Of a stretch of 64,000 bases of DNA, positions 4,368-37,473 are shown one piece after another; within the stretch, counting starts at the first letter, position 1, and every line of letters starts with the position of its first letter. The stretch covers positions 124,001-188,000 of the forward strand of contig PUQB01000080.1 of the NCBI GenBank assembly GCA_003024785.1. The letters are read 5' to 3'. The notes below the pieces were generated by a model. It was not told the origin of the DNA and searched no databases. It saw only the letters and a program-made list of their open reading frames with translations. This DNA comes from Selaginella tamariscina (taxonomy: Eukaryota > Streptophyta > Lycopodiopsida > Selaginellales > Selaginellaceae). The translations under genes and the position numbers were made by a program.

Positions 4368-5006
4368 CTTATATTATTGTGCCAGATACAAAACATTGTC
4401 AAGAGTCAATGGAGCCAGTACATGCACAAGCCCCACAAGGTTTTGATGAAGTGTTGGCCATAACATAATCTAACTTGATGCACTCCGATATGTTAGGTTC
4501 TTCATGAAGCAAAAGGCTTCAAAAGCAAACACCAAATTGCATAACCAACTCAGATGTCTCTTGGTGAATATGATGATTATCGAAAAGCATCATCATAGTC
4601 ATCATCATGCTCAAATGTGTATTTGAAGACCATTAGAAGAATACTCCAATCCCCACAAGTTGCTACGTCTAGACCATTATACCACTGCAACACCATCCCT
4701 TGAAAACAAATAGGAGACTCACGCAAACATCAAGCATTGTTCCATTAATGATATGTGGCGACCACTGTATTTATAATAGGAGCATGAGTAGCACCATGGG
4801 CTATGGACACCACCATCATTGAGTCTAATTGTTCAGCTGCACTTGCATGGCATTTAGCAATTACATGAGTAGTTGCTCCACAAAACAAAGGATTTGCATA
4901 TTATGCAATCATAAAAGAAAGAAGAGAATACAAATCTACAAGAATAGAACATATCTAACAATGGAAAAGCTAAATGCAAAAAACAGAAGATTTACACAAA
5001 ATGCAC
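4368..5006. other. Non-coding flank left of the TIR element
   Basis: No gene is supported. The stretch ends with the 17-mer AGAAGATTTACACAAAA (4,985-5,001), which recurs in the same orientation at 19,925-19,941, just beyond the other end of the large TIR element. It may be the tail of the minus-strand retrotransposon into which the element inserted. Confidence 0.4.
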
Positions 5007-5025
5007 GTTGTAACTAAAGTGGGCA
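5007..5025 (+). repeat. Left terminal inverted repeat
   Basis: GTTGTAACTAAAGTGGGCA, 18/19 identical to the reverse complement of 19,881-19,899. The following ~60 bases (GAAAATGGAAATAT, then AT-rich with TTAATTAA runs) match the left end of the MITE at 37,254. Confidence 0.75.
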
Positions 5026-5399
5026 GATACGTGAAAATGGAAATATAAAATAAATTACTAATTAATACTTAAATTTTAATTATTAATTAATCATTTAATT
5101 AATGTAATTAAGCCTTAAATATTAATTAATTAATTAATTAATCCTTCAATACCTTACTTAGTAAGGAATATTCCTAAAATATCTTAGAATATTCATATTA
5201 TTTTAAAAGTTTACAATAATGAAGAAATACTATCAAACATAATTACAATGAAATCATTTTCTTATCACAATTAATTTTTTATAAATACTTTCTTCCTATC
5301 ATACAAAGAAATCTTCTTATTTTGTCTAAATCATCACTCTCCGAATTAATCAAATCATTTTGGTCAATATCTTGATGTTGTTGCCACCACTTAACACTC
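5026..5399. other. AT-rich left subterminal region
   Basis: TTAATTAA-rich sequence without coding potential, including a small palindrome (TTACTTAGTAA near 5,153). It shares GGAATATTC-type motifs with the right subterminal region, as expected for element ends. Confidence 0.5.
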
Positions 5400-6640
5400 T
5401 CACGAATGCAATTGGGAGTTGCCCATCCTTGTTAATACATAAGATGTGATAAGAGAAGGTCTGCATAAAGGCTCATCTAAAACTGACGTTCTTAAGATAA
5501 TATTATAAAGCGCCCGATTGCTATCCTTCATTTTATAAAAATTCAATATCACGAGAAGAAAAGCTTCAGGAAATGTATGATACGGTGGATACTGCTCATA
5601 AAAATTTTCGAGATTCTTTCTTTCTGAGGCACGTATCCAAGTAGTTCACTAGCTCATCCATGATATCGGTATCAGAATATGGATCGAAAGTGATTGATGA
5701 ATACAAGCAATGTTTTGGTTGAGCATAGCCTTCTGAGGAGAATCGTCTACTACTAACATCTGTGCGTTCTTCATTATCCTTAAGCGACTGATCTCCCCAT
5801 GAGTCCCAATTATTCTTTCATTCTTGAAGAAGTACGGATTGCTTTCCTTTCTTATATTGTGAAATTCGAGAGGTTTATAATATTCGCTGGTCAAAAATCC
5901 AATCTTTTACGAATCACCTCTTCTGCAACACTACAATGTTTCTTAAGTAAATTCAACAGCGGTGTTAAGTTATGAATCTGCATGCATGACCAAATCCCAC
6001 AAGCGCACCCATCTCCTTAAGCTTTTGAAAGAGACGATCCAACCCTGGACGAAAAATAATATCATATCGAAATTTACCATGACAAGGAATGAAATCTCCT
6101 TGTTTGATTCTTTTTCCTATCCTTGGGCCTTTGTCGATGAAGTAGAACACCATTGACATCCAACAACACAATATGGCCATGATAACATGGGATAGCGTTG
6201 CCTCTTGAATACTTTGCAAATCACTTGTTTGCTCCCTTTCACATTTATCCATTGCCACTATCTCGTTGCCTATCCCTTCATCATTTAATTGTACATCATC
6301 CTTACAAGATTCAGATATTGCATACGCTGAAGAAATTGATTTCGGAACTGAAGCCAATAAAAATGATGATGAAGTGGCCCCATGGTAACGATGTTTTTGA
6401 GCTGCATTATTATCCATTTCCTGCATGAACTTTGTCATTCTGACATGTGGCACAAATTGTCGCCAAACCCCTCTCTTACCTTGCCAATGCTGAAAATCCA
6501 TGTTCTCAATTGTTTCATTACATCTGCAAAATGATAATTAGCTGACCTTAAAATTATTAGGTATATTATTTACCTTGTTAATGTGTGACCCATGTTTGAC
6601 TAAAAGCTTCATTAATCCTTGAGAATTTATTTTCTGTACA
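5400..6640 (-). CDS. FCP1/NIF-like HAD phosphatase domain gene (frame-broken)
   Basis: Reading the minus strand, a putative exon starts after a TTTGTACAG acceptor near 6,636 and another after TTTTGCAG near 6,524. The protein then has a polar, acidic N-terminal part of about 100 residues. HAD motif I follows as VLLDVNGVLLHRQ (around 6,170-6,130), then an FRYDIIFRPG segment, a YYKPLEF segment and motif III as VVDDSPQKAMLN (around 5,755-5,720). This order is that of plant FCP1/NIF (CTD-phosphatase-like) domains, which dephosphorylate Ser/Thr on protein tails using the first Asp of motif I. At least three frame changes separate the motifs, so it is either a pseudogene or carries assembly indels. 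It is the outermost cargo gene of the TIR element, downstream of the ParB-like gene on the same strand. Exon limits and the stop are approximate. Confidence 0.6.
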
Positions 6641-6700
6641 AATATAAAAGAAATATACAAAAATGCCTTATGTTACACTCATTTACAACTATTCGTCACT

Positions 6701-9700
6701 CTAACAATTCATTAACAATTCTTCTTCGCTATTACCTTCTGAGTGAGGCGAAGAAGGTCTAAGCCGCTTGTGAGATGGTTCAAGATCTTCTGCATCTTCT
6801 ATTGATGTTTCCATGGGTCTGGAGTGTGCGAATGTTCTGTACTCCTCGAGATAACTTCCGGTCTAATATCTGATTGAAGTTCGTTCTCAGACTCCGAGAT
6901 TGAACCAGATTCACCTTCAGAGCTATCGCACTTATCTGGAGGGAACTTTCTCAAATACGCCTTTATGGATTCGTTGGGGTACTCAGTTGAGAACCTCTAT
7001 CCACTTGTTCAGGTCCTCAACCATGGTCTTATCCTTTTCAACGGCAAACACACATGTATGCCGAAGGTAACACTCCTTCAAGACGGACCCCCTAGTGCAG
7101 TAGTCAAAAACCCACGCATCACTGTGAGGACCCCTATCAAGTTGACGATGCTCCGTGCCGCTTGACTTGTAATGTTTGGATAACGTACATTGCCGAATAC
7201 GTCACTCCCTATCGGTGTATCGGATGGAGGTTCAGGGCCGTTGGAGTGCAAACAGATGCCTGGCCAGTCATTTGGAAGCTTGAAATTGTTTGGCGCATTC
7301 CTAACAACCAAGTGAACAACGGTATCAATGCACTTGGGATTAGCATCGTTCATATAAAATCCTGTCCAACGATGTCTATTCTTCTTGGCGAAGGCGAAGG
7401 CAAAAGTATCGGTGACATGAGCAAGAATCAAGAAATAAATACCTGAAAAAGTAGGTATCAGTGAAGAGCGCAAGCATGAATTCAATAATAAATACCTTCT
7501 ATGTATATGCTTGCACGGCTAAGTTTCTCCACCAGATCCTCTAGTGCCCTATCTGTCGAAAGATTTTTTGACACCCGCCGATCCATCACGAACAATTGAA
7601 ACGGTTTCCTACAAGCAGTGATGTTACCCCATAAAGTCTCCGAATCTAACAACAAACATCTGTAGGGCTTGTCGTGATTCGTAGCATCCTCCTTTATAAG
7701 GTTCAATTCGGTTCTCCGCTGCTGAAGGACTGCCATAAGAGAAGGCGTCATCCCAATGTTCTCCTTTTTGGCGTTGGCGTGCAATAGATTCTTGCCTAGA
7801 TCTTCCGATTGGTTCACCCATTCGACAAGCATATCATCGTTCGTCACATGCAAATATTTGCTGACCTCTTCATATGTTGAAGTCGAGGTCCAACCCAGTT
7901 TGTGGCAGTGTATTCCCAACCACTCCTTGAAATGCCTGACCGTCTTCAACTCCATTGCCTTGAGATGAAAAGGAGAGGTTGGGCTGCTGTTATTAATTTG
8001 TAGTTTGCCATCGATCACCAAATCAGCCAAGACTTCCATCTCCTCCATCGTTGTTCCATTTAAAGGCTTCAACCATGTGAGCTTGAAATCGTTGTCTACA
8101 TCCTTTGTAGATTGAACAGACTTAGCCTTCGGCGTCTTACTGGGTTTCTTTGCAGACTTTTCTGAGGGCTCCCCTTCACTTGTCTGCTTCTTCTTCAGTG
8201 TTCCTTTTGAAAAGGATTCCATAATCCCCAACCATTTGGCAAAGATCCTATCTTCGGGGCAAGAAATCAACATCATCAGAAAGGATGTTTCCTTCCCGCC
8301 CACCTGGGCAAAATCAACTGCTGCAATTTCTTCAACTCTCTGAGAAAAAACAGATTAATATACCGGCGAGATAAATCCCGCCCAAACAATTTGCTTACCC
8401 GGTATTCCAGATTGTGTATTCCTGCGTAGCTCTTTGTGGTCGCTGAAGAGATTCCCACACGGCTCGCGTGTGTTTAAACTTCTCCCATATTTTGCTGTTG
8501 TAGTGGTTGGTGTCGGCAGCGTCCCATTCCGCCGATAACTTATGGTACTGCTCGATTGTGAGATTCGGCTTAGCTAAAAACGCCGATCTTTTTGTCAGCT
8601 TCTCACGGGTATGCTCGGAAAGTTTTGTTGCCATCGTTCCTTTGTTGTGTTCATCGAGAAGTCGTTGGGCTGCCGTTATTGTGTGCTGGCCACTAATGAT
8701 GTAGTACTTGATAGATTTTCTATTCTCCGTCTGAATCTTCATGAGTTGTTCTGGTGTTGTGATCCAGACTTTGTCAGCGCCCTTCCTTCTTTCATAGTAT
8801 GGACACAAAACAGCATTATGTGGAACGGTATAAGAATTGTCGTCCTTCATCTTCTCCATGAGCTCAGCTACACGTTCCTGGTTGAGTGGCCTGTAATTGA
8901 AGTTTGGGTTGACGCTGCAATATTTAACCCTACAAGGATAAATCTTTCATCCAACATCATTTCCTTGTGACTTATTGCAGCATGAGATGCCACAGGTGCA
9001 GCTGACAAAACGATTGATGATTTTCTTTTGCGATCCGAATCAACATGTGTGATCCCCGACTGCAGCTGTTCTAGTGTTCTCGGCACACTCTTCCAGCTCC
9101 CGAAGCTTCCTAAGCAAATTGAACGTGATCTGTAGAGAACCTGAGACCGAGCCACCCTCTCAATCTCCCTTATGATGTCGCTGTGTTCTTCTTCAATGTG
9201 AAGAGGGAAGATTGCTCCACTTGCTGATTTTCTGTATTGTGAAGCAATATCTCCTGACAATACACCTACTCGATGAGTCTGAAGATCTTCGAAGTAGACA
9301 TCCAGATGGATCCCCTCCATAGATGGGCTTTCGTTGAGTTGAAGAAGAACTCCAAGGTCAACATCATTAGTGAACACGTGAACGTCATTATCCACAAGTC
9401 GACAAACCACCCGAGATTAATGTTGTAACTGACGACCTCTGGATCCGAGAACGTGACATTGGATGGAACAAGGCATATCTGTCGAGAATCGTCCAATCTG
9501 GGTTCGCAGCCTGCTTTCGGGTGCTTGACTAGCGAATCTACTTTCCATTGTTTTGCTTGTCCATGAGATGTGACAGAGGTTAATTTGACAGCAACCATGG
9601 TTGCTCCAATGCGCTTCCCATTTATCTTAAAATATGGCCAAGTTGATTCCAGAATCCCCCTGCCCATCTCTTCTCCTGCTCTTGTCTTTAATGTCACCTC

Positions 9701-9800
9701 AATTCCACATCTGTATACAAAGTATTTAATTCTTCAAGCACATATCCGAGTATAACAGATTTTATTTTAATTCTTACCCTGAATTTGACGACGACTCCAT
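6701..9800 (-). CDS. ParB/Srx-like and methyltransferase-like protein of the TIR element
   Basis: The chosen start is the ATG at 9,798-9,800, just after a TTTTGCAG acceptor and conserved in the copy at 21,374. Three short introns with GT-AG ends fit (9,711-9,777; 8,340-8,397; 7,443-7,495). About 260 residues in, a ParB/sulfiredoxin-like segment reads NPNFNYRPLNQERVAELM, then after ~60 residues YYIISGQHTITAAQRLL, resembling the conserved boxes of ParB N-terminal domains. A Lys/Ser-rich linker follows. The C-terminal part has DAWVFDYCTRGSVLKEC and then FAVEKDKTMVEDL, resembling motif I and the following acidic strand of permuted N4/N6-type DNA methylases. No DPPY motif is visible, so catalysis is doubtful. 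An acidic Ser/Glu-rich tail ends the protein. At least four single-base frame breaks are present; the second copy is intact at two of them. Family calls rest on motif reading only. Confidence 0.6.
8365..8382. promoter_or_regulatory. Single palindrome copy inside intron 2 of the ParB-like gene
   Basis: GGCGAGATAAATCCCGCC, a variant of the array palindrome, lies within the 58-bp intron 8,340-8,397. The second gene copy keeps the same site at the same place (22,750-22,767, GGCGGGATTTATCTCACC) although the rest of the intron has diverged. Confidence 0.6.
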
Positions 9801-10177
9801 ACTAATCACTGAATCTCCTTATTTGATTAAATCGTCCTTCTGCAAAATAATACACTATGAATACAATTTATATAAAAACGCACAAACACTTGTCTAAACC
9901 CGAATATACAAAAATAATACACTGATAAATTCACATACACCTGAGAGAAGTGGACAGGATTAACTGTCCGAAGCTAACATTTGTGATAGTGCAAAAAACT
10001 GATAACATTTGGTTTTAGAAACCACAAATGTGAGCTTTGGACAGTTATACATGGTTTACTGGCTTTTACTCAAAATATTATGATAAGCAAAATATTATGA
10101 TAAGATGATAAAAGTAAACAAAATGAGATATGCAACTTATATATAGTCATAAACATATATATTCACATGGAAGGTGC
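9801..10177 (-). other. Leader region of the ParB-like gene
   Basis: The ATG is preceded within 50 bases by a good splice acceptor (TATTATTTTGCAG on the minus strand), so an upstream 5'-UTR exon probably lies beyond this stretch. An inverted repeat flanks the middle: GGACAGGATTAACTGTCC at 9,953-9,970, followed by TAACATTTGTG and its mirror CACAAATGTGAGC. No ORF is supported. Confidence 0.4.
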
Positions 10178-11117
10178 GGCGGGATTTATCTCGCCACATC
10201 TTTTATGCCTCCTAAAAGAGTGGGCGGGATTAATCTCGCCACCTTTCTGGAGGCCCTGAATGGGTGTGCGGGATTAATCCCGCCACCTTTCTCGTTCTCA
10301 GAGAGAATTGGGCAGGATTTATTTCTCACACCCCTTCAGGGGCTCCAGAAAGGCGGCGGGATTAATCCCCCACTCTTTTAGGAGGCATGGTGAAATTAAT
10401 CCCACCACCCTTCTCAGTTCCCTCCATTGGTATTTTGTAAACCTTCTCCGTCTCAGACAGAGTTAGTCGGGATTGATTCAACATACCAATGGAGGAAAAA
10501 AAGAAGGGTGGCGGGATTAATCCCGCCACCGGGCATAGAAGGTTCGGAGATTAATCCCGCCGCCCTCTCGTAAATCATGCGCTCACACATATATATTGGC
10601 TGCGGGATTAATCCCGCGGCATTTTGAACAGGGATGGGTGGGGCGGGATTAATCCCGCCGCTTATATCCTGCGGAAGTGCCTGAGCGGCGGATTAATCCC
10701 GCCACCCTCCGCGAAGGGCATGAGCATGGGGCGGGATTAATCCCGCCGTTCATGTCCTGCGTGAATTCCCTGGGCGGCGGGATTAATCCCGCCGCCTTAC
10801 ACGCAGGACATGTCATGCAGGCTCTTCGGTTAGCCTTCCGTGCAGGATCTTTCATGCAGGCTCTTCGGTTAGCCTCATGAGCGGCGGATTAATCCCGCCG
10901 CCCATCCCCTGTAAATGCCCTGTGCGGAATCCGGCGGGATTAATCCCGCCCATTAGGGCCTTCACACAGCCATTGCCGGCGAGATAAATCCCGCCGCATT
11001 CCGCACAGGGCATGGGTGGGCGGCGGGATTAATCCCGCCGCCATGGCCCCAACCATATAGCGGCGGGATTAATCCCGCCGCCGAGGCCAGCAGGCTATGT
11101 GGCGGGATTAATCCCGC
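10178..11117. repeat. Palindrome array 1 (GGCGGGATTAATCCCGCC)
   Basis: Seven exact copies of the 18-bp perfect palindrome (starts 10,510; 10,642; 10,730; 10,776; 10,933; 11,022; 11,062) and about ten variants sit in this 940-bp stretch. Spacing is mostly 38-46 bp. The spacers are themselves mirrored: GCCTCCTAAAAGAGTGGG at 10,207 and its complement at 10,369-10,386; CCTCCATTGGTAT at 10,421 and 10,483-10,495; CATGTCCTGCGTG at 10,751 and 10,800-10,812; ATGCCCTGTGCGGAAT at 10,915 and 10,998-11,013. The stretch is therefore a set of nested hairpins, GC-rich within an AT-rich element. It is non-coding; open frames across it are repeat artefacts. Confidence 0.9.
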
Positions 11118-11149
11118 TGCTCGAGGGCTTAGCATGTATGCGAGAGATA

Positions 11150-11199
11150 AAATTAATAAATAAAAAAATTATACAGATAAAAACACACACACATATATA

Positions 11200-11287
<88 letters not shown>

Positions 11288-12041
11288 TGTTATGTATGTA
11301 TAGGAGTGTACGTGTGTGTGCAAGAGATAGATAAATAAATAAAATTATACAGTACTGGTACAACATAATATATGTGTGTATATATGTACATAGGTATATA
11401 TATGTGTATATGTATATCGCGTGTATGCGTGTGAGCGAAACAAATAAAATCATACAGATAAACAAACACACACACACATATATATACACGGGTGTGCGTG
11501 TGTGTGCGAAAGATAAAACTAATAAATAAATAAAATTATACAGATAAACACACACATTATATATGTGTGTATATAGATATATAACCCATAGAGAAAGAGA
11601 GAGAGTCTATGAATATATAAGCATAATATATAAACTAGTTTGTATACTATTTGTTAATATGCATTTTATATATATATATATGTGTGTGTGTAAAGCAGTG
11701 TGCGTGTGTGTGGGAGAGATAGATCAATAAAATTTTTTTATAGATACTGGTACACATAATATATGTATGTATATATGTATATAGGTATATATATATGTGT
11801 ATATGTATATTGTGTGTATGCGTGTGTGAGTGAAACAATAAAATCATACAGATAAACAAACACACACACCACTATATATACACAGGTGTGCGTGTGTGTG
11901 TGAGAGATAAAACTAATAAATAAATAAAATTATACAGATAAACACACATATATATATGTGTGATATAATATTAACCCATATGAATATATAAGCATATATA
12001 TAAACTAGTGTTGTATACTATTTGTTAATATGCATTGATTA

Positions 12042-12102
<61 letters not shown>

Positions 12103-12790
12103 AAGCAGTGTGCGTGTGTGTGGAGAGATAGATCAATAAAAAAAATTATATAGATACTGGTACCATAATATATGTATGTATATATGTATATAGGTATATA
12201 ATATTATGTGTATATGTATATCGTGTGTATGCGGTGTGAGAGCGAAACAAATAAAATCATTACAAATAAACAAACACACACACAAATATATACACAGGAG
12301 TGTGCGTGTGTGTGCGAGAGATAAAACTAATAAATAAATAAAATTATACAGATAAACACACACACATATATTATGTGTGTATATAGATATATAACCCATA
12401 TGAATATATAAGCATATATATAAACTAGTGTTGTATACTATTTGTTAATATGCATTGATTATATAATTATATATATATATATATGTAAAGCAATGTGCGT
12501 GTGTGTGGGAGAGATAGATCAATAAATTTTTTTTTATAGATACTGGTACACATAATATATGTATGTATATTGTATATAGATATATATATATATGTGTATA
12601 TGTATATCGTGTGTATGCGTGTGTGAGCGAAACAAATAAAATCATACAGATAAACAAACACACACCCACACACACATATATATACACAGAGTGTGCGTGT
12701 GTGTGAGAGAGATAGATCAATAAATAAAAATTATACGCACACTCCTAATATATTACATACATACATATACACACACACACACACAGATCT
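11150..12790. repeat. AT/GT microsatellite-bearing tandem repeat, ~370-420 bp unit
   Basis: Long (TA)n and (TG)n tracts are embedded in a higher-order repeat. The landmark TTGTATACTATTTGTTAATA recurs at about 11,640, 12,012 and 12,432, and an AGATACTGGTACA block recurs with it, giving units of about 370-420 bp. No coding sequence; open frames reading YIYIYIY or THTHT are microsatellite artefacts. Confidence 0.85.
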
Positions 12791-12999
12791 CACCTGTGTG
12801 CACAGCCGCCGCCTCTTGAAAACCTTAAGAATATACCTAAACCCTAAAGGAATTAAATATATATATTAACCTTAATAGAATATTCCTTCTGAGAATATAC
12901 TAAACCCTAAAAAGAATAAAATATAGATTCGCCCTAAACGAATATTCTTTCATTATATTATTAGCGCGTGCGTGTGCATGGGTGTATCACATACACCCC

Positions 13000-14205
13000 A
13001 AAAATATAAATCATGCAAGAATTTAACATGTGTGTGTCCATGAGAGTGTTAAAGTTTCATGTGTATCAATACATACATATTACACATAGTTTTATACACA
13101 CATACATACATATTAGTACATAATATTAGAGAGACAGAGTACATATTATGGATCATATTGTGTATGTTTGAGAGAAGAGAGACAGTACATATTAACATGG
13201 ATCATGCATGGTGTGTATGCATGAGAGAAGAGAGAGAGTGTTAAAGTATTAAATTCATACACATTGCATATATTTAATACACATATATACATACATACGT
13301 GTATACACAGACATACATACATATTACATGGGTTTAGGGTTTAGGTTTAGGGTTTTTGGATTTAGGATGGATCATGCATGGTGTGTATGTATGAGAAGAA
13401 GAGAGAGTGTTGAAAAATTTATTTTTGTACACATTGCATATATTAGTACACATATATACTTACACATATTATACACAGATATACATACAATAATATGAGA
13501 GAGAGAACAGTACATATTATGAATCATGCATGGTGTGTATTATACACACAGACATACAGTATTGATGAGAAGAGGACAGCTACATATTATGGATCATGCA
13601 TGGTGTGTATATACACACACAGACATACATACATATTAATACATAATATTAGAAGACCGAGTACTACATATTATAGATCATGCATGGTGTGTATGTTTGA
13701 GAGAAGAGAAACAATACATATTAACATGGATCATGCCATGGTGTGTATGTATGAGAAAAGAGAGAAAGTACACATATATACATACAGAGTACACATATAT
13801 ACATACACACGTGTATACACACAGACATACATACATATTACATGAGTAAATTTCATTGTGTTACATATTAGGGTTTAGGGTTTAGGGTTTAGGATGGATC
13901 ATGCATGGTGTGAAGAGAGAGTGTTGAAAAATTGTATACACAGGGTTTTAGGATTTAGGGTTTAGGGTTTGTTCCCAACAAGCTTAATATAAATATTACA
14001 CATGTAAATTCAATGTGTTACATACACACAAATTGAATACATATATCATACATGCGTTGAACATGATGTTTTCAATAAAGAAGCAACATATTTCTTCAGT
14101 TTGGTTTAGGGTTGTGATTGTGTGTGCATATGTGTTTTTGTAAGTTCTTGTAATGCGTGTATAAATTTATGATTGTGTTTATATATGTGTGCAAAACAAA
14201 CATCG
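13000..14205. repeat. Irregular tandem repeat with telomere-like TTTAGGG tracts
   Basis: A block with GGATCATGCATGGTGTG repeats at about 13,148, 13,199, 13,367, 13,520, 13,589, 13,677, 13,727 and 13,896, separated by CATACATACATATTA-type sequence. Three short runs of the plant telomere repeat (GGGTTTAGGGTTTAGG type) sit at about 13,328-13,360, 13,867-13,893 and 13,943-13,970. No gene is supported. Confidence 0.8.
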
Positions 14206-15000
14206 AATAATTAAGAAAATAATATTAATAAACACACTATGAACATATTTTAAATTATACATAATAATATATGATTTTATTTAATATATAGCCATATATA
14301 GTTTTAATAATATATATATAATTTAATATTGATAAAAAGGTTTAACATTGAAATATTCTTGAAATAATAAGAAATTAATTGAGAAAAATCCCATTAATAT
14401 ATACAAATGTAAATTAAGTACTCAAATAAATAACTAAATTAATTATCATAATCATGTTTAATATTAGAATATTCTGGAATAATAAAAAAATAATAAAGAA
14501 TATCCCATTAATATAAAGAAGATTAATTACTCAAGTAATTAAGGAAATGATATTAATTACACACTATGAACATATTTTAAATTATACATAATAATACATC
14601 ATTTTATCTAATATATAGTCATATATAGTTTTAATAATATATATTATTTAATTAATAATAAGGTTTAACACATGAATATTCTTGAAATAATAATACAAAT
14701 TAATTCAGAAATCCCATTAATATATACAATGTAGAAATAATTACTGCAATAATTAAGACAATACTAATTTAATTATGAAATCAGGTTTAATATTAGAATT
14801 TCTTCAAATATTAATAAAATATTAAAAAGAATATCCCATTGATATAGGAAATGAAAAACTAAATACTCGAGTAAATTAAGAAATATAATTAATAATAAAC
14901 AGGACTATGACTATATAATTTTAAATGATAATATAATATAATATAATATTTATTATTGTATAAGTAAATATATATATATATATAATATAAATATACTTGA
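14206..15000. repeat. AT-rich ~330-bp tandem repeat
   Basis: CACTATGAACATATTTTAAATTATACATAATAATA occurs at about 14,235 and 14,566, and a decayed third unit starts near 14,896. Each unit is followed by TATAGTTTTAATAATATATAT and AATCCCATTAATATA. Non-coding. Confidence 0.75.
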
Positions 15001-15572
15001 ATACTAAGAATGTAGAATATAGTCTAAAATTTCGTAATATTAAACAGCTTGAATCACTTGAATAACATTAAATGCAATTTTAAAATACTCATTGGAACTG
15101 GAGAGTATATATGTCAGAGTGTCGGATATTTGTGTCAACTCATCTTAAATTTTATTTTCTGTTCTTTTTAAAAAATTTGAATTTCTGACATATGTATTGT
15201 CGGTCTGACATGTAAATTTGAAAATGCATTTAATTTCCCACTCAAATTCAGATCTGGTTCTTTCTCCGGCAAGGGTTTCTTCATTTCTGTATTTTTCACT
15301 CTTTAGATCTTCTTTTTTCTTCATAGTGATCATCTCAGGAGCGAGATTAAATTGGGTGCTATTCTTTATAGGAAAGCACGGCGCCTTCAGTGCTGTTTAC
15401 AAGTAAGTATTATAAACAAATTTAAAAATACTTATAAAGATTCACTCTCTTACATTCTCTCTTAAAATTACAATTTAGGGGTTTAGGAATGCATTAGGAT
15501 TATAATATATTCCGTTAGGGATTTATCCCGTTTAAATATCCTTTTAACTTAATATTCTAGGTTAACCGGGGC
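15001..15572 (+). promoter_or_regulatory. Putative leader exon of the transposase-like gene
   Basis: A less AT-rich pocket (15,215-15,400) ends in a good splice donor (TTTACAAGTAAGTA at ~15,397). The next good acceptor is TTATGTGCAG at 16,274, directly before the transposase-like coding region. A 5'-UTR exon spliced across palindrome array 2 is therefore plausible. The small open frame here has no family resemblance I trust. Confidence 0.35.
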
Positions 15573-16127
15573 GGCGGGATTAATCCGGCCATTTCTTTTT
15601 CGCCTCTTCGAAGAGGTGGCGGGATTAATCCCGCCACCATCTCTCGGGCAATGCTTCTCCGCCACTGAAAAAGAGTGGCGGGATTAATCCCGTCGATAAC
15701 CTTCTCAACTGATGAAGAGTTACCAGAATTTATTAGAAAGAGTTGTCGGCGGGATTAATCCCGCCAACCATTTTAGGAGGCAGGGAAGGGGTGGCGGGAT
15801 TAATCTCGCCACCACTTCCCTGTTTTAAGGATTTGGGGACAGGATTTATCCCGAGATCTCTTTGAAATCATAGTTTTGGAGAGAGTTATGTGCGGGTTTA
15901 ATCCCGCCACCCATTCCCCGTCGTAAGAATTGTGGGCGGGATTAATCCCGCCTTGGACTCCCTCCGACAAGGAAGAGCGGCGGGATTAATCCCGCCGCCT
16001 CTTCCTGTCGGGGGAGTCCGGCGGGATTAATCCCGCCGACTCTCTCCGAAGGGGTTGAGTCGGCGGCGGGATTAATCCCGCCGACCGTTCCTCGTCGGAG
16101 GGATTCGTGGGCGGGATTAATCCCGCC
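15573..16127. repeat. Palindrome array 2 (GGCGGGATTAATCCCGCC)
   Basis: Seven exact palindromes (starts 15,618; 15,748; 15,935; 15,979; 16,020; 16,065; 16,110) plus about six variants. The last five exact copies are 41-45 bp apart, close to four DNA helical turns. Mirrored spacers extend the palindromes: the segment starting GGACTCCCTCCGAC at 15,955 pairs with 15,999-16,019 around the copy at 15,979, giving a roughly 65-bp hairpin. The array ends about 150 bp before the transposase-like coding region. Confidence 0.9.
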
Positions 16128-16280
16128 CATCAGTTGTATTAATCAAACATGAGATATTATCTCTAAACATAATTATGTATTATTGCATATGCATATTATT
16201 AAGTAACCGTAATTCAGATTTCTTAAAATATTGCATAAACAGATATCATAAATAATACAATTATTTATGTGCAGGACAAT

Positions 16281-19200
16281 ATGTTTAATACTGGAGATAA
16301 AGTATGTCTTCTTCGGAACAACGAGATAGTTGGCACTGGAACTGTGGAAGTTCGAGATAATAATGCATCATGTCACAATATTGCCCAAGGATCTTGTGTG
16401 TACGTATGGGTGAACACCATTTACAAGCATGTTGAGGTTCTGGGAATGGAATTTGAGGAGGGTTCTCCTGTATTGTGGAATTTGGATGAAGTCAAGGCTG
16501 ACACAGAATATGCAGAGTCACAAACAAATAGTAGCACGAGTTTACCAGATGATGGCTTGCCTGCTGTGATGGATGAGGTGATTCTCTTTCTTCGTGAGAT
16601 TGAAGTCGGAAGAGGCATCATCACAGCTATAAATCCAATGGAAGCAGTGTCAGAAGAGAAACTAGGGTCCGACTTCGTGGGTGTAGTTGTGACAGAGGTT
16701 TCACCTAATGGCACATTGTATCCTGGATCCCTCGTGAGGTGGCGAACATCTGAATTAAGACGGCAAGATGGTTCAACATATTCTGGGTTGGATTTCAATA
16801 ATAACAACCCGGAAGAACAACTCATATTTGAAGAGGTTCCTTGCATTGGTCCTATTGTAAGAAAAAGGCGATTCATGGGTTGTAGATCTTCCCCTGCAAG
16901 TTTCAGCAAGAGGGTAAAGATGGATCCTACATCTTCCGAAAGTGTTACGAGCATTTCCACGATTGACTGTTGCAAGAAGAAGTGTTGTCAGATGGCAGAC
17001 CGGAATGAAATTACCCAATGTAGACATGTCTTTCGTATGCTCACCCAAAAGCAAAGGCATGAGTTTGTATATGCTGCACTAACTGGGTGTATTGATGGAA
17101 TGGCCTCGGACACAGGTTATCAGAGTACATCCATGGTATTTAATAAGGTGGCCATCTGCTTCAAAGCTTGGTACAGTATATACGGGATCCCAAAGACCAC
17201 GTTCTACCGTCGGAGGGATGAGTGGCTAGATGGAGCGCGAACCTCAGTTCATGGGAACACTCGCTTGGTCAAAACCCGCTCTCACATCATGGCAGCCATA
17301 GAGATACTCAAGGCTTTTGTGGAAGCAAATGCAGACAGGATGCCTCACAAATGCCGAACCACAAATGCAGGGGTCAGGGAAAATCTCAAGGTTTTGCCTT
17401 CAATCTACACTCAATTGAAGCTGTGTGAACATGTGAACAAGTGCCTCAGTTTGATGGGGCTCCAAGCAATCTGCACTGGTACCTTCAACAACATATGGAA
17501 TACTCATTTTAAGGATGTGGAGATTGCAAAACACTCTAGCTTTTCCAAGTGTGACACTTGTACATCATTGAAGGCTGCAGAGGCTTGTGCAAAAACCTTG
17601 GTGGAGATCACTACCATTCAAAAGAAGATGGAGGCCCACATGATTGCACAACAAACTTGCCGGTCTCAGTACTATGCACACCGCATGCTTTCTGTGTCAC
17701 GCCCATCAGAGTACCTGTGCTTGATCCATGACAAGATGGATCATTCAAAGACCAGCATTCCAAAGCTCTTTGCAACACCAAAGTGCCTTGGAAATGTCAT
17801 GAAACTTCCGATTTCATTGACAGGTGTGCTAACACATGGACACGGTTGTGAGTCATATGGACACTTTTCACTTCCACATTGGTCTAGCGACTCCAATTTC
17901 ACTATTGGGTCGTTAGCCATGTGTTTCAGAAACCTTGAAGCCCACTCACAGACAAGTCCTATCAGTGATCTCAAAGTGAAGAAACAACACCTTCAACCTT
18001 TACATAATGCTCTCATGAACACGTCTGCACTTGAGGCTACTTGGGAATATGAGAGGCATTGTCAACAGCCTGCACAAAAACAGATGGCCCTGTTGAGAGT
18101 TCTGGTTCAGTGGAGGGATCTAGCTCAAATAGTGTACATGTGTCCTCAACATCAAATAAGCTTCCTCGTCATTTGCTTTTACAGATGGATAATTGTGCAG
18201 GCGAGAACAAAAATAGGTAAATCATTTTACTTAAGGGTTTCTCAAGCTCATACTTACTTTTATTTTCTAGATATGTGCTAGCATACTTGTCAATGCTTGT
18301 TGCCAAAGGTGTGTTTGAAACAATCACGCTCAGTTTCCTTATGGTTGGTCACACTCATGAAGATATTGATGCGTTCTTCAGCAAGGTCTCCAACTCTACA
18401 AAAAGGACAAGTGCACTTACCTTACCGCATATGATGAATCTTTTTGAAAATTGCATCTCCAAAAAAAGTTGTGCTTTGCTTGTGACTGAGGTGCCAGACT
18501 TCAAAAAATTTCTCAAGGAGTATATAAAAGAAGGGAGTGATTCTTTAGTTGGTCACCTTGTGCCGCTACAATTCTTTTTCTCCATACGAGATGGTATACC
18601 TATTATGCAGTACAAGTTACGGCCATCAGAGCAGGAGTGGTTACCGAAAGAGGGCTTAATGCTCTTCAAAAGTGGAGAGGATGGAAAGCCACTTCTCCCA
18701 GAAGGACAACCAGACCCTATTCCATTGAGTGCCCAGCTCAAGGAACAAGAGGTTATTATTGATGGCATCAAAAAATATGTGGCATGGGTTCAAAAATCGA
18801 TGCCAAAGAATTCTGATAAGGCAACTGGTTACTCAGAACTATATAAGCATGTGGTCGACTATTGGGAGACTGTTGTTCGAGAGTTGGAAGGGCCTACTGT
18901 CACAAGTACAGAATTGCAACACCCTTTTGGCCTAAAACAAGGTGGCGAGAGGAGATTGAAATGACATCACTGAGCACAGACGACATAGAAGCCAGTAGTG
19001 ATGTGGAAGTGCAAACCCCACACTTTGTTGGACAAAGGAACCAAAAACCTAAAGCATACTTTGATTGCTGCAAGGATCTTCAAAAACTAATGATGGTTCT
19101 CATTACTCCAGATGCGTCATATAATCAGCCTATTTGGATGGGTCAAATTATCGACACACCTGAAGTAATCACAAAAAATAGTATTGTTAAGGTTGCATGG

Positions 19201-19398
19201 TTCAAACCACAAAAAAGGCGACACGAGAAGGAGAGCGAAAGATATAATGGATGCCTAGAGAAAACATGGTCTCCCAATCAAAAAGACCCAGCATGTTTTA
19301 TAAATGTTAAATCCATTCGATATGGGTGGATGTCAAGAAGCGTTGATAAAGTCACGATTAACAAAACTGCAAGGGAATGTATGTTTTCTGAAGCTTAA
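16281..19398 (+). CDS. DUF7869-type DDE transposase-like protein
   Basis: The chosen start is the ATG at 16,281, seven bases after a TGTGCAG acceptor. The N-terminus (GDKVCLLRNNEIVGTGTVEV) and a second segment near residues 100-180 resemble the small domain of plant TNP1/En-Spm-type proteins. A Cys-rich part and a YGIPKTTFYRRRDEW helix follow. The catalytic-core candidates are LIHDKMDHSKTSIP (~17,722), LQMDNCAGENKNR (~18,180-18,216) and MVGHTHEDIDAFF (~18,341-18,375), the arrangement known from DUF7869 proteins with an RNase H-like fold. A 54-bp intron (18,217-18,270, GT-AG) splits the codon for R in ENKNR. The C-terminal ~140 residues contain a WxGQI...VKVAWF segment like BAH/chromo-type tails. 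Two frame breaks are seen, between ~18,050 and 18,080 and at a T-run at ~18,923. The gene is probably the mobility gene of the TIR element; exact transposon superfamily unknown. Confidence 0.72.
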
Positions 19399-19880
19399 AG
19401 CAATTACAAAATTATAAAATATCATATATTTAATATTCATAATTATTATAAACTCTTTAATAATAGTACCAAATTGTATACTTAACTATATAAATTTAAA
19501 AAATGATATGGAAGATTGACTATATTATTATAGGATTTATATATATATATTATTACTACTACAAATTTTTAATTAATAATGTTATATTTAAATATTAATA
19601 TTTTAATAACAACATCAATATTTATATAATGTACCTCTTATGCTCTTCCTTAATTGTTATATTAGGCAATATATATATATAATTTAATACTTCTACTTTT
19701 ATAATGTTATTAATTTTTGTTCAATGAATGCTATAATTTATTAAAGGGTAGAATACAAAATAGAATATTCTAAAGAATATTCTTTTTCAAACATATATTC
19801 TAAAGAATATTCCTTTAATATTAGAAAATGCTAATTAAATAGCTAAAATTGCTAATTATTAGGAAATGGGACTATAGCCA
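19399..19880. other. AT-rich right subterminal region
   Basis: No coding sequence. The last ~100 bases (GGGACTATAG, TAATAATTAG, AATTAAATAG motifs) align closely, base for base, with the right end of the MITE at 37,254-37,473. Confidence 0.55.
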
Positions 19881-19899
19881 TGCCCATTTTAGTTACAAC
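19881..19899 (-). repeat. Right terminal inverted repeat
   Basis: TGCCCATTTTAGTTACAAC, the inverted partner of 5,007-5,025. Confidence 0.75.
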
Positions 19900-19924
19900 T
19901 TGCATAAAAAATGTAAAAAGACAA

Positions 19925-20790: not shown

Positions 20791-21373
20791 TTATGCTAAT
20801 AATAAAATGTGGCATTGTAGTCGTACACATGACCTTACAACATAAGTCTCTATTTTAGGGCTAGGGTTTATGAAAGTCAATGGAGGGAACATGATGCATG
20901 CAGAGTGAGGGAGATTCAATTCTTTGATTCTTGTGACATATCACTTGTTGATTTGTAACAAATTTTGTATGTATTCCAAATCCAAATCTTTGTGTGTGAA
21001 CATTAGTCACATAGTTCATCAGTATCCGGATCATATATTAAGGTATGCATAGTACTTACATAATATACTCAAGCTATGGGGGTTGTGAGCTTTGAACACT
21101 TAATCCCGCCCACTTCTCTCTGAGACGAAGAAGGAATATGTGAATGTACCAGTGTATTAATTATATATAAGTACATTTTTCTGTATATTATAATTCCTCA
21201 CCATTTAATTAGTTTGAGCACTTCAGAGAAAATATGTATACCTGTAAAATTTTAATAGTATATTTGTATATTTGGGTTTATATAAGTGTGTATGAGTTTT
21301 TATAAGAATTGTATTCATAATGTAATATTGTGCAGAAAGATAGCTTAATCAAACAAAGTGATTCAACCTTAGT
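20790..21373. other. Retroelement 3' remnant and truncated leader of the second ParB-like gene
   Basis: 20,790-20,910 repeats window positions 1-110 (ATGTGGCATTGTAGTCGTACAC-type match). From ~21,090 the sequence resembles the leader of the ParB-like gene and retains only half a palindrome (TTAATCCCGCCC at ~21,101). An acceptor TTGTGCAG precedes the coding start at 21,374. Confidence 0.5.
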
Positions 21374-24300
21374 ATGGAGTCGTTATCAATTATGGGTAAG
21401 AATTAAAATAAAATCTGTTATATTCGGACATGTGCTTAAAGAACTTATCATTTTTGTATTCAGATGTGGATTTGAGGTGACTTTAAGACAAGAAGGAGAT
21501 GAGATGGGCAAGGGGATTTTGGAATCAACTTAATCATATTTCAAAATAAACAAAAAATGCATTGGATCAATCATGGTTGTTGTCAAATTAACCTTTATCA
21601 TATCGCGTGGATAAGCAAATAATGGAAAGTAAATTCATTAGTCAAGCACTCGAGGGCAAGTTGTGAACCGAGATGGGACGATGCTTAAATATATACCTCG
21701 TTCCATCTAATGTCACATTCTCGGATCAAAGGAGGCCAAATACGCAAGAACCTCGAGTGGTTCTGTCGGCTTGTGGATTACAATGTTTACGTGTTCACTA
21801 ATGATATCGACCATGGTGTTCTTCACTTAAACGAAAACCTATTTATGGAGGGGATCCGGCTAAATGTTTACTTCGAGGATCTCAATACCCCTCAAGTAGG
21901 TGTATTCGCAGTAGATATTGTTTACAGAACATCCACAAATGAAGCAATCGTCTCAACTCTTATTGAAAAAGAACACAACGGCATTATTAAGGAGATTGAG
22001 AGGATCTTTACAATCACATTCAATTTGCTTGGGAATCTTTGAAAGCTGAAAGTGTGTGCCAAGAACACTAGAACAACTACAATTGGGGCTTACACATGTT
22101 GATTCTGACTACATAAGAAAGTCATTTATCATTCTGTTAGCTGCACCAGTGGCATCCCATGTTGTGATAAGTCATAAATTGGATAATAGGATTTACAAGT
22201 GTAGGGTTAAGTATTACAACATTAACCCCAACTTTAATTATAGGCCATTCAATTAGGAATGTGTAACTGAGCTCGTGGAGAAGATAAAGGATGACAATTC
22301 TTACACCATGTTGTTTTGTGCCCATACTATGAAAAAAATAAAGACACTGAGATAGTATGGGTATGGGTGGTAACACCAGAACAAATCATGAAGATCCAAA
22401 AAAAATAAAAAATTAATAAGGTACTACATTATTAACGGCCAACACATGATAACAGTAGCCCAACAATTTCTCAATGAATACAATAAAGAAACGATAGCAA
22501 CAAAACTTTTTGAGCATACTCGTGAGAAGCTAATAAAAAGATCGACATTTTTAACTAAGTCGAATCTCATAACCGAACAGTATTATAAACTATCGACAAA
22601 GTGGGACGCTGCCGACACCAGCCACTACAACAACAAAATATAGAAGAAGTTCAAACACACGCGATCTATGTGGGAAACTCTTGGGCGGATGCAAAGAGCT
22701 ACTGTAGGGAGAGAACAAAGTGCGGAATATCGGATAAGAAAATTTTTTTGGCGGGATTTATCTCACCAGCATATTAATCTGTTAAATATTCCATCTGAAG
22801 AGAGCCAAAGAAATTGTAGCAGTTGATTTTGCCCAAGGGGTGGGAAAAAAACATCCTTTTTTATTATGTTAATTTTTTATCCCGAGGACAAGGTCTTCGC
22901 CAAATGGGTGGTGGAAATCATAAAATCATTTGTGAAAGAAACACTGAAGAAGAAGCAAACGGGTGAAGGGGAGCCCTCGGAAAAGTCTGTAAAGAAACTC
23001 AATAAGACTCCCAAGGCTAAGTTTGTTCAAGTTACAAAGGATATAAACAACGACTTTGAACAAAGGATATAAACATGGTTAAAGCCTTTGAATGGAACAA
23101 CAGTGGAGGAGATGGATGTGTTAACTGATTAAGTGGCTGATGGCAAATTACAGATTAATAATAGCAACCTACCTCTCCTTTTTATCTCAAGGTAATGGAG
23201 CTGAAAATGATTAAACACTTCAAGGAGTGGTTAGGAATACACTGCCATAAACTGGGTTGGACCTCAGCTCCAGCATACGAGGAGGTTAATAAATATTTAC
23301 ATATGATAAACAATGATATGCTTGTCCAATGGGTGAACCAATTAGAAGATCTAGGCAAGAATCTATTGCATGCTAGAAAGTAGAACATTGTGATAATGCC
23401 TTCTCTTATGGCAGTCTTTCAGCAGCAAAAAACTAAGTTCAACCTTATAAAGAAGAACGTTATGAATCATAACAAGCCCTACAAATGTTTGTTGTCAAAT
23501 TTGGAGACTTTATGGGGTAACATCACTGCCTATAGAAAACTGTTTCAAATGTTTATGATGGATCGACAGGTGCTAAAAATTCTTCTTCAGGTAAGGCGTT
23601 AGAAGATTTAGTGGAGAAGCTTAACCATGCAAGCATGTACAGAGAAGGTTTTATTATTTAATTTTTGCACACTTACTTGATATCTACGTTTTCATGTCAT
23701 TTGCTCATTTTGCTCATGTCACTGATACCTTTGCCTTTGTCTTTACCAAAAAGAACAGACATCGCTGGACTAAATTTTACATAAACGATGTTAATCCCAG
23801 GTATATTGATACAGTTGTTCACTTGGTTGTCAAGAATGCGCCAAACAATTTCAAACTTCCAAATGACTAGCCAGGCATCTATTTTCTCTTGAATAGGCCT
23901 AAACCTCCATATAATACACCAATAGCTAAGAGGGACATATTTGATAATGTAAATTATCTAAACGTTACAAGTGAGGTTACACGAAGCATCGTCAACTTAA
24001 TTAGGGGTCCTCACAGTGATGCATGGGTTTTTTACTACACATAGGGGATCCATCTTGAAGGAGTATTACCTTTAGGATACATGTATCTTTGCTGTTGAAA
24101 AGGATAAGACCATGGTTGAGGATTTGAACAAGAGGATAGAGAGGTTCCCAACTAACTACCCTAACAAACCCATACATGAGTATTTAGGAAAGTTCTCTTT
24201 AGAGAAATGCAATAGCTCTGAGGAGGAATCTAATTCAATGTCGGAGTCTGAGAACGATTTTGAACCATATATTACACCAAAAGTTATTTCAACGAGTACA

Positions 24301-24435
24301 AAACATTTAATTACTCCATTGACCATAGAAACATCAAAAGAGAAAATGGAAGATGTCAAACGATCTTCCAAACAGCTAAAACCTTCTTTGCCTCACTCAG
24401 AAGTTAACAACGAAGAAAAAATGATAATGTGTTGA
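21374..24435 (+). pseudogene. Second, decayed copy of the ParB/methyltransferase-like gene
   Basis: Colinear with the minus-strand gene at 6,701-9,800 and in inverted orientation to it. It keeps the ATGGAGTC start, the ParB-like boxes (NPNFNYRPFN at ~22,220 and YYIINGQHMITVAQQFL spread over two frames at ~22,425), the Lys-rich linker (KKKQTGEGEPSEKS), the ELKMIKHFKEWLGIHCHKLGW block, the methyltransferase-like end with VEKDKTMVEDLNKRIE and the acidic tail ending at 24,435. In-frame stops (for example in the GHT segment and at the DAWVF motif) and many A/T-ward changes mark it as a pseudogene. It lacks the palindrome array, the satellite and the neighbouring genes. Homology stops near 24,465. 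Confidence 0.8.
22750..22767. promoter_or_regulatory. Palindrome variant in the intron of the second ParB-like copy
   Basis: GGCGGGATTTATCTCACC at the position matching 8,365-8,382 in the first copy. Confidence 0.55.
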
Positions 24436-27400
24436 TAAAGTGACAAATAGTTGTAAATGAGTGTGTATTTCTAATGGAAGACAAATCCCCTCAAATGATA
24501 ATTTACATTTCCATATCAAGAGATTAAGGTTTAGAAATTGTATCTTTTAGTGGGATGAAATAAATCTTGCAGAGTGTTGGATATCTTCAAACACTAAGGA
24601 AAATCCCACTCATGTGGTTGCATATGCTGCACTTAAGATAATACACTCAAAGATTTATGATTTTATTCTCATTGAGTTAAAAAGAGCGAATGAGACAATC
24701 ACTTGTATCTCTAAAGCAACATAGCAAATGCCATAATAACGATTTCCAAATGCATTCAAAACACTATACAACAATGGCTTTTAAGGTTGTGAATTGATTA
24801 TCACATGTTTGTCTTTTCAATGAATGACAATATAAAGAACATAAGAAGATTTTGTATATAATAGGCAATATTGAAGTCATATGAGAAATAAATGTACAAA
24901 AGAATTTAATGAGGAGTTTAAAGCTACAAAATTCATTTTAAAATAGTGAGAATAATAACTATAGAATTGGTCATAAAGATACATGGGATTTGTATTGAAA
25001 AATTGTATATTAAATATTAAAAGATATATTGTTGAATATATAGATCTTTATTAACTTGTATAGTTATGCCGAACGATTGATGTTCCAAATTTATATAAAT
25101 TAATAAGTAATTCTAATGTTAAATTCATGAAAGTTATAAAAAAAAATACAGAAATTCCGATAGTGAGAGTAATAAAAATGTAGTAAATTTTTTAGGATTT
25201 ATCTTTTAATTAAGAATTCTAATAATTAATCATGACATTCTTTCTATAAACATAAAATATTCTTATATTAAATATTATATAATTATTAATAAATTTTAAA
25301 TAAATTATAAAAATTATTAATTATTATTAATTGAGACTTAAAGAGTCCCATTTTGATTTAAAAGTGCTTGTTTTGTCTAAGGTAGTTGCCGAGGATTAAT
25401 TGTGTTTATTTTCTTTTCAAGTTTATGCTATATATATTAATTAGTATTACACGAGTAAAAACCTTGCTATTTATAATAGTTACGTAAAGACCTCCATTTT
25501 GCCTCTTCCATATCTACTTGTGGCCCGAATTTTTATCTACACGTGTCGTACCGAGTTCAATGAGGATTTTATAAAAATATTTTTTAGAAGATTCCATATG
25601 GTTGTGCGTTCTTAAGCGCTCGTACGGGCACGTTAGTTGCTCTCCTCTTATATTGAGTTCTTTAATGATTTATATATATAATATGTAAGAGAGAGAGAGT
25701 CTATATATATAAGACATCAATATATAGATAGACAAACATAGAAGGTCACAGGCTTAAGAGCATATGTATGCTTGTATATACGGCTATATATGCTTGTGCC
25801 AGCATAATATACAGATATGAGAATGAATATACAGATACAGATACACTCTTTGTATACTAATTCTGCAGACCGACATACACATACACAAATAATTACACAG
25901 ACATGTGGCACATGAAAATCAACATACTATTATTCATTTTTTGATGTATATAAGTATAAATACACGCCTATCTTTATATAATATGTCCACTAGCTTACAG
26001 ACAGACACAACATTATTTATATGATATATATGCATGTGTATGTATGTTTATATACACATAGGTACACACATATATGTACATATGTGTCGTTTTATGCAGG
26101 ACCTCAGGAAGGCGTTTAGCAAACGATGGTGATTTAGAAAGCAGTGAATTCGAAGAGAAGACATCAGTTTTATCGGGTTTGCATATTGTGCATTGCAGCA
26201 TGATCCTCTTAAACAAGTATTTACTATATGGGTTTAATGCTGGTTAATATTTGATCAGGTAATTAATACAGTATATAAAAACTTATGCTAATCCATAATT
26301 TATGTTATGCAGAATCTTGTTAGTGTCATTGCTGTGAGCTTATTAAGTTGTTCGGGCATCATAACTATAGAATTATTATTTATCTCATAATAATACGAGA
26401 ACATTATGTGATAAGACGGTATAAGATATGAGATCTTAATGTGGTAAAAATGATACATTATCTTTTATCTAATCGAAATATTATAATAAGCTCATGTGGT
26501 TAAAATTTTCACGGTTCATATTTAATAAAGTCATTTAATTCAGGTAAATTATGCATCATTTGATTAAGTAATATATGAGTTACTTTTTTTTAATAATAAA
26601 TGCTCTGATACATGACACGAGAACATTAGTGTAATTAAAATAGTAAAACATTTATATAGTTAATATTGCACCAAATGTTTATACACTAAATGATATAACA
26701 ATAATAATGTGGTCGAAGATGATATAAAATATAAGAACACTCGTATAGTTAAGTGATAATACATAAAAACATTGATGTGGTTGAGATGATAATATATAAA
26801 AATATTCAGGTAATTAAGATGCATTACCAACATGATTAAATTCGTAGTCGAAAAATGTTACGGAAATATTTAATTATTAATTTAATTCTTAGTTTACTAA
26901 TTATTAATCCGTAATATTTTTTTACTACGGTATATATCACTGATTACAAGTAATATAATTGAAATGGTATATTAAATTATGCACTCAAAATGGTGCACAT
27001 AACGAGATGGTTTACCATGTGAAATTTAATATTAGAATTTGACATTTAACATGTGGACTAACCTTAATTATAATACTTTATCATTTTCACATTCATAATA
27101 TAATACTTAAGTGATAAGATAAAAACATTTAATATGAAATATTAAGTAATAACATAGTGATTTCATTATAACATTTTAAATATAAATTTATATACTTTAT
27201 TATTTTTAAATTTTAATGTTTTAATTAGTTATGGGATTGTACTCAAACATAAAAATTCAACTAATATTAATTTTAAAATTAAAATATTTACACTTATAAA
27301 TTTAATTTTAACATAATATGTGATTTTAATTAATTATATATATATACTCTAATGTATTTAATATAATTTTAAATTAAATTATGTAATATATAATTTTAAA

Positions 27401-35836: not shown

Positions 35837-37253
35837 TGAGAAATTAGACCCAAGAAATTGAGAACAAACTTAATGCAACCAACAAGTGGATGTCTATCAG
35901 TTGTTTGGCGGGGTGATAACGGCAAGAAAGCAAGGGCTTATCGGGTAAGCAAGAGCAAAGACGAAGCTAGTTTTCTAGTCCGATTGGGTCAACTGTCACC
36001 AACAACAAAGAAATAAGCCTGACGTGGAACATGTACTCGACAAGACTTTTTAAGCAACTGTATAAGAACATTGAGTTTATAGCTCCTTGTCTCACCTATG
36101 ATTTAAATGAGCACTGTTAGGGAGTCATGATTAACATAATATAAAGACCAGATCTAAGATTATGTGGACATGGAGAGCATGGGAAAACAAGCATGAAAAA
36201 CAAGAGGGTTTTTCAAAACCAACAAAGGCGCTTACCGGTCATGGCTTCGGAGCCTTTACCTAACCCTAATTGAATTTGTTAAATGTAATCGAATATTCGT
36301 GTATCTCACCATCTACGGTTGAGATTGCAGCCTCTTAGAAACATTTGATATACATATATGACTGTATAATGCGCATATACTTCTTTACGTACATATTTGA
36401 TAATACTTCTTTACATACATGGTTTAGTAAATAATAACTAAAATGTAAAACTCTACAAATTGAAATTCTACAGTGACATATGTAAAAGACCGTGTATCTT
36501 TTTTTTTTTAAGTATATGTTATATAAGTTAATTTAAAATATTATATAGATTATATTAAAATTATGTTATTATTTTTAAACTTAAAATTATAAATTTAAAT
36601 ATTTTAATTATAAGTTTAGTAGATTTTCATTTTCAAATATAAATCTCTTTCTAATTTAAAATTTGAAATTAAAATATATAAATTTACATTTAATGAATTT
36701 ATTGTGTTGCTTTGTTACCATCATTGTCTTTTGATGTTTTTAAACATTAAAATTAGAGACCTAGTTAACTATTATAGGAGAAAGTTCTGCACACTCTATG
36801 TGTTACATATATAAGTCATTAGTTTACTTTTACTTTTAAGTTGTTAGTCAATTAAAAACTATTAGGACATTCCTTATCATTAATTAGATAAATAATGTTT
36901 CCGATTCATTTAAATATTTAGAATTTTATATTATATGTTTTCGTGATAAGTTATATTACCTCATCAACTAGATTAGTTATTTTTTAGGTGACCACACTAT
37001 AAAATTCATAAGTAAAAGTATAACAAGCAGTATAAAATCACTATTCATGTAGTGCATAAACATTATTATTATTCTAGTTTATTATTTAATTTATTTATAA
37101 ATAAAATTCATTATTCCATTTATATTAAATTCTTAGTTCCAGCCTTGACACTCACTATGTTATGCAATGATAATCGTTGAGCGTGTGTATAATATTTTTA
37201 TTCAAAATAAAAGAGTGTTCAACATGGATTAATATGTTCTACAACAGTGAACA
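35837..37253. other. Intergenic region
   Basis: 35,840-36,340 has ordinary composition without a supported frame; the rest is AT-rich. No gene is seen. Confidence 0.5.
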
Positions 37254-37473
37254 TTGTAACTAAATTGGGAATGATAAATAAAAATGGGAATATAAAAAAT
37301 TATTAATTAATATTTACATATTAATTATTAATATTTTAAATATACATTTAAAAAATTATTCTTTTTTAATTATTTATTATTCTAAATTTATTTATTTAAA
37401 AATACTAATTAAATAATTAAAATTGTTAATTATTAAAAAATGGGACTATAAACATTCTCATTTTAGTTATAAG
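37254..37473. mobile_element. MITE sharing both ends with the large TIR element
   Basis: Starts TTGTAACTAAATTGGGAATG and ends CATTCTCATTTTAGTTATAAG, an imperfect terminal inverted repeat. The left ~70 bases match 5,008 onward (AAAATGGGAATATAAAA, TTATTAATTAATATT) and the right ~70 bases match the sequence before 19,899 (AAATGGGACTATAAACAT, TTAATTATTAAAAAATGGG). It has no coding capacity, as expected for an internally deleted, non-autonomous derivative. Confidence 0.75.

Follow-up and report, generated by a model that had tools for sequence, protein, structure and literature searches.

Organization of the transposon copy

The window analysed here, a 64,000-nucleotide stretch of Selaginella tamariscina DNA (contig PUQB01000080.1, positions 124,001 to 188,000), contains a copy of a large terminal inverted repeat (TIR) DNA transposon that occupies positions 5001-19905 and measures 14,905 bp. 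The 19-bp inverted ends noticed in an initial annotation of this DNA, GTTGTAACTAAAGTGGGCA at 5007-5025 and its inverted counterpart at 19881-19899, are identical at 18 of 19 bases, and alignment with other copies extends the ends 6 bp further outward to a full end of 27 bp, ATGCAMGTTGTAACTAAARTGGGCATG. The left repeat (5001-5027, plus strand) reads ATGCAC GTTGTAACTAAA GTGGGCA..., with one T near the end of the 27-mer absent in the window copy, and the right repeat (19879-19905, minus strand) reads ATGCAA GTTGTAACTAAA ATGGGCATG on its own strand; the 12-mer core of the end is found exactly at 5007 and 19888. The genes form two divergent groups, the left one on the minus strand and the right one on the plus strand, in agreement with the initial annotation, and two palindrome arrays surround an AT-rich low-complexity core (11131-15240) in which CA/TA repeats and telomere-like runs of TTTAGGG occur. 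All three genes of the window copy are damaged: several frameshifts affect the ParB-like gene, the phosphatase frame is interrupted, and the transposase gene switches frame close to where its first coding exon ends.

The gene of the right group (16281-19398, plus strand, predicted intron at 18217-18270) encodes a protein of the DUF7869 DDE/D family, which gives the DDE-type enzyme proposed earlier a definite family. The second exon of another copy, L019, matches Pfam PF25273 with 94.1 bits against a curated cut-off of 26, and 108 homologues were retrieved, with relatives in mosses, a liverwort, molluscs, a coral and lancelets. The structural model of a 52%-identical homologue displays an RNase H-like core; Foldseek alone gave weak matches, the best being Tn5 (E 0.017). 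Family membership, the fold of the relative, a set of acidic residues that do not vary and the association of the gene with the ends all point to the DUF7869 protein as the transposase, which would cut and join the DNA of the element. The name DUF7869 was not found in the literature searched, and a domain listed as being of unknown function is now linked to a specific transposon whose ends and 4-bp duplications are known.

The left group includes a gene that was not named in the initial annotation, a NIF/FCP1-like HAD phosphatase at 5300-6550 (minus strand), whose open frame in the copy L011 matches Pfam PF03031 (E=5.1e-12, 46.2 bits, cut-off 21.8). Its DNA is present in all ten other copies compared whole, at 94-97% identity. 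The gene probably has an accessory role and is retained along with the element.

The second gene of this group (6700-9800, minus strand) would encode an orphan protein of about 975 residues, which we call ParB-like and methylase-like by motif only. Its exons, assigned by eye, lie at about 9800-9779, 9710-8399, 8337-7496 and 7442-6700, and longer open exon frames are found in the copies L017, L027 and L019. Searches of protein databases returned no homologue; Pfam gave only sub-threshold matches (for example PH_BUD3_C, E 0.067), PHROGs one unknown family (E 0.025), and no match naming ParB was obtained in Pfam, PHROG, NCBIfam or PDB. Comparison with phages by tblastn did not support ParB or methylase homology, and the PDB matches to designed repeat proteins, each stretch scoring about 5 bits at most, were rejected as chance. 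The predicted structure of the ParB-like domain is too poor a model to support a ParB fold. A stretch resembling an AdoMet motif, FDYCTRGSVLKE...FAVEKD, was recognized by eye only and has no profile match. The classic catalytic motif of N4/N6 DNA methyltransferases is [DNS]PP[YFW], and it is absent from the frames of at least 60 residues of this gene in 11 copies (L011 being partly N). Both labels, taken over from the initial annotation, are plausible by eye and unconfirmed by search or fold.

Genomic copies and insertion sites

The abundance of the element was assessed in the 300.7-Mb assembly (1,391 contigs). The exact 27-bp end occurs 2,259 times (control, 0) and is the form present in 26 of 40 sampled ends. 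For the 12-bp core of the end, 3,995 occurrences were counted, versus 97 for the reversed control. The 18-bp palindrome GGCGGGATTAATCCCGCC has 27,128 exact occurrences (control, 0). Pairing of ends was analysed for the first 100 listed of the 3,995 12-mer sites, where neighbouring ends 10-16.5 kb apart were oriented inward in 19 cases, outward in three and on the same strand in one; shuffling the strands produced a mean of 5.7 inward pairs and a maximum of 12.

Ten of the 19 inward pairs were compared whole and the other nine were sampled by two 1.2-kb stretches each. The whole copies span 11.8-15.4 kb (nine of them at least 13.8 kb) and in all ten the three genes (phosphatase, ParB-like and DDE) are represented, although in L011 most of the ParB-like gene is replaced by 2,500 bases of N, and a similar stretch of N crosses array A and the core in L015. 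Eight of the sampled pairs have ParB-like and DDE DNA at the expected places, and the remaining one (C42, 10.1 kb) has DDE DNA only. Neither gene was detected in two control stretches taken from outward pairs. All but one of the 19 inward pairs hence enclose both transposase and ParB-like DNA (18 of 19), which is the arrangement that the initial annotation had proposed to look for, namely inverted ends 10-25 kb apart enclosing the same genes. If the 100 listed sites are typical, a rough extrapolation gives about 760 end-to-end copies, amounting to 11 Mb or near 4% of the genome. The ten whole copies and the window copy together hold 198 exact palindromes, or 18 per copy, and dividing the genomic palindrome total by this number yields about 1,500 copy equivalents, fragments counted. 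Telomere-like TTTAGGG runs were seen within the AT-rich core in eight of these 11 copies.

Target site duplications were examined in 21 insertions, comprising the ten whole copies, the window copy, the nine further pairs and one short derivative. Directly outside ATGCAM, nine insertions show an exact 4-bp duplication (ATGT, TAAT, TCTT, CAAT, ATTA, ACTT, TAGA, AAGG and TTAA), versus 0.87 expected in shuffled pairings. The other 12 are without an exact 4-bp duplication, the window copy being flanked by CAAA and AAAA with three of four bases matching, and duplications of 5-10 bp are unsupported among the 21. The copy L015 has inserted into another member of its own family, within the 5' part of that member's transposase gene, and the empty site of L015 is represented by six uninterrupted sequences with a single TAAT. 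Inverted repeats common to dispersed copies, a duplication of fixed length with an empty site, and a DDE/D transposase with an RNase H-like fold (seen here in the model of a relative) are traits by which a TIR DNA transposon is recognized, and all were found here.

Two short derivatives retain both ends: the 245-bp L048, flanked by a TTAA duplication, and a MITE-like deletion derivative of about 228 bp at 37248-37475 of the window. The palindrome core is absent from both, so that the arrays are dispensable in cis for movement. Two further arrangements of ends were observed, one (L049, G000:C1:2394538-2395395) with two left ends pointing apart, separated by about 250 bp and with other DNA inside, and the other (C80) with two left ends in the same direction, 249 bp apart.

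Conservation of the palindromes and their possible binders

The window holds 33 sites within two mismatches of GGGATTAATCCC, where 2.4 would be expected, in agreement with the two arrays flanking a repetitive core described in the initial annotation. Eighteen of these sites lie at 10181-11115 and 13 at 15518-16124, with single sites at 8368 and 22753. Array A (10165-11130, with 18 sites at up to four mismatches) is located 5' of the ParB-like gene, and array B (15515-16130) inside a predicted 5' intron of the transposase gene, flanked in all 11 copies by conserved donor-like and acceptor-like sequences that precede the transposase coding start. In the ParB-like gene, the lone site at 8365-8382 falls within a predicted intron; it recurs 3353-3448 bp from the left end in ten of the 11 copies, its place in L011 being N.

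Across the 11 copies, 402 sites were identified with up to four mismatches, and their commonest spacing is 44-46 bp. Information content reaches 1.2-2.0 bits per base inside the sites and is mostly below 0.7 outside, although individual positions in the spacers of array B reach up to 1.1; selecting the sites by likeness inflates the conservation of the palindrome, and 198 of them are nonetheless exact. Between adjacent repeats (312 pairs, the palindromes being chosen by likeness) the palindromes are 92% identical and the spacers 32%. Among perfect 16-bp palindromes with at least four G/C, this sequence accounts for 215 of 244 in the copies, and the only one at 20000-64000 of the window is a different palindrome. 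When the two arms were compared in 417 sites with up to five mismatches, 430 changes affected one side of a base pair and 23 affected both, 11 of the latter being complementary; positions 7 and 8 are the least variable, the middle pair changed 51 times, and 102 changed pairs can still form G-U. On balance, this pattern of conservation makes the palindromes resemble double-stranded docking sites of a dimeric protein rather than RNA hairpins.

What was observed directly are the ends and target duplications, one empty site, the linkage of three genes, the arrays, the abundance of the element and the constraint on the sites. The explanation that we consider best, and which is likely, is a young, high-copy, cut-and-paste transposon with a DUF7869 transposase, in which the palindromes serve as protein docking sites that control both genes and the element's own ParB-like protein is the likeliest binder. 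Given where the arrays lie, B within the predicted 5' transposase intron and A on the 5' side of the ParB-like gene, a dimeric protein docked on the double-stranded palindromes would most likely control both genes. For the ParB-like protein as that binder, taken by itself, the chances are about evenly balanced. In that role it would repress its own copies or mark them; its C-terminal part might methylate DNA, but the classic catalytic motif is missing, and tens of thousands of sites per genome would titrate the protein as copies multiply. A second copy of the ParB-like gene at 21084-24464 of the window (also delimited as 21256-24464), old, heavily decayed and 78% identical over 3.3 kb, weighs against the giant transposon proposed in the initial annotation, given that it has no array and represents the gene apart from the arrays; it keeps a lone palindrome at 22753, in a position matching the intron site of the main copy. 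Beside it lies an end-like sequence (25346-25367) that resembles the main left end by eye. We rejected this end as belonging to a separate family because it occurs at a single genomic place at up to one mismatch, which implies that the second copy is an isolated relic.

A more elaborate scheme, tentative and rather doubtful as a whole, adds self-marking and copy counting. The ParB-like protein would load at the arrays, spread along or otherwise mark the element, control the transposase gene and its own from the same sites, and be titrated by the very numerous genomic sites. If true, a land-plant transposon would carry a partition- and iteron-like logic. The initial proposal that the arrays are protein-loading sites fits the sequence pattern, but their partition-like role is putative and homology to ParB could not be shown. 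With a precise candidate 18-bp site 5' of two genes, kept while the spacers differ, one can ask directly whether a transposon controls itself, marks itself and senses its copy number.

The binder could instead be a host transcription factor acting on the same transposon, tying both genes to the host cell cycle. The half-site GGCGGGA resembles E2F sites, each array lies 5' of a gene and the site is a clean double-stranded motif. A host factor would, however, be titrated heavily by the 27,128 exact sites, and a short E2F site would require neither an 18-bp palindrome without flaw nor a regular spacing of 44-46 bp; we regard this explanation as possible but unlikely. Somewhat less probable is that the transposase itself binds the arrays as internal sites for assembling the ends, as subterminal repeats do in CACTA elements. 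Arrays of such repeats are known from transposons, and in its N-terminal part the transposase matches TNP1/EN/SPM weakly (E=0.059, under the cut-off). In the window copy, however, the arrays start 5.2 kb from the left end and stop 3.8 kb from the right end, and L048 has moved with both ends and no palindrome.

That the palindromes act in RNA as intron hairpins, for example as a source of double-stranded RNA or in the control of splicing, is improbable. Array B and one further site do lie in predicted introns, 54 of the changes that leave G-U are at pair 5 and eight of the complementary two-sided changes are at pair 3; against this stand the large excess of one-sided changes and the fact that positions 7 and 8, the least changed, would lie in the loop or adjoin it. 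The other possibility raised in the initial annotation, a replicon of viral or plasmid-like kind that was domesticated or integrated and has the arrays as partition sites, found no support and is very improbable: the large size, the ParB-like motif and palindromes reminiscent of parS speak for it, but target duplications, copies scattered over the genome and short derivatives are typical of transposons, the frames of the element gave no replication gene in Pfam scans, and pattern scans of viral contigs revealed no relative of either protein (an absence that is no proof) and the palindrome at one site in one contig. Equally remote is the spread of ordinary tandem repeats by slippage or duplication, since the 40-45 bp units that Tandem Repeats Finder reports in parts of both arrays are countered by the divergence of neighbouring spacers between conserved palindromes and by the recurrence of the lone site in an intron.

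Relation to known transposons and neighbouring features

The ends of CACTA/EnSpm elements begin with CACTA or CACTG, whereas those of the present element begin with ATGCA. Like it, CACTA/EnSpm elements occur in plants, can carry multiple genes and have binding sites in repeated form; the present element differs from them in its ends, its 4-bp duplications and its internal arrays. Bacterial ParB-parS systems share clustered palindromic sites and, by eye, the ParB-like motif, whereas the element is without profile or fold support for ParB, has dispersed chromosomal copies, and no ParA was found in it. For Kolobok and piggyBac, the consulted part of the source describes TTAA-only target duplications (PMC9587614), and the nine exact duplications, mostly not TTAA, do not follow this rule.

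The 4-bp duplications are of the Sola type. The available text on Sola2 describes 4-bp, mostly AT-rich target duplications and a Fanzor1 gene (PMC3627910), and the likeness to the Sola superfamily, drawn by description, extends to the 4-bp mostly AT-rich duplications, the TIRs and the accessory genes. The closest precedent is the giant transposon Sola1-1_Ec32 of Ectocarpus, which, according to the portion of the report at hand, is 21.5 kb long and encodes a 1104-residue ParB-like and DNA methyltransferase protein on the strand opposite the transposase (PMC12477816). Both elements thus combine giant size with such a protein opposite the transposase, the proteins being compared by description only. 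The same portion suggests that ParB-like/methyltransferase proteins of algal transposons bind and mark their own element, and names no binding site (PMC12477816). Sola1-1_Ec32 differs in its brown-alga host, and neither palindrome arrays nor a phosphatase are mentioned for it in that portion. Among the matches listed in the open-licence literature, no other comparable element was found. A giant transposon with a ParB-like/methyltransferase protein is a known kind; what appears to be new among those matches are the phosphatase and the dense arrays of palindromes with their position 5' of two genes. The undescribed giant transposon of the initial annotation is well supported as a transposon by the paired ends, the 4-bp duplications and the empty site, while its gene combination has a precedent in Sola1-1_Ec32.

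Outside the element, the window contains related cytochrome P450 copies or fragments at 28.7-33, 51.6-53.4 and 60.8-62.6 kb (Pfam PF00067, four frames), the latter two places sharing stretches up to 100% identical in translation. Remains of a retrotransposon are located at 55.6-58.5 kb, with an integrase core match and an aspartyl protease match below cut-off.
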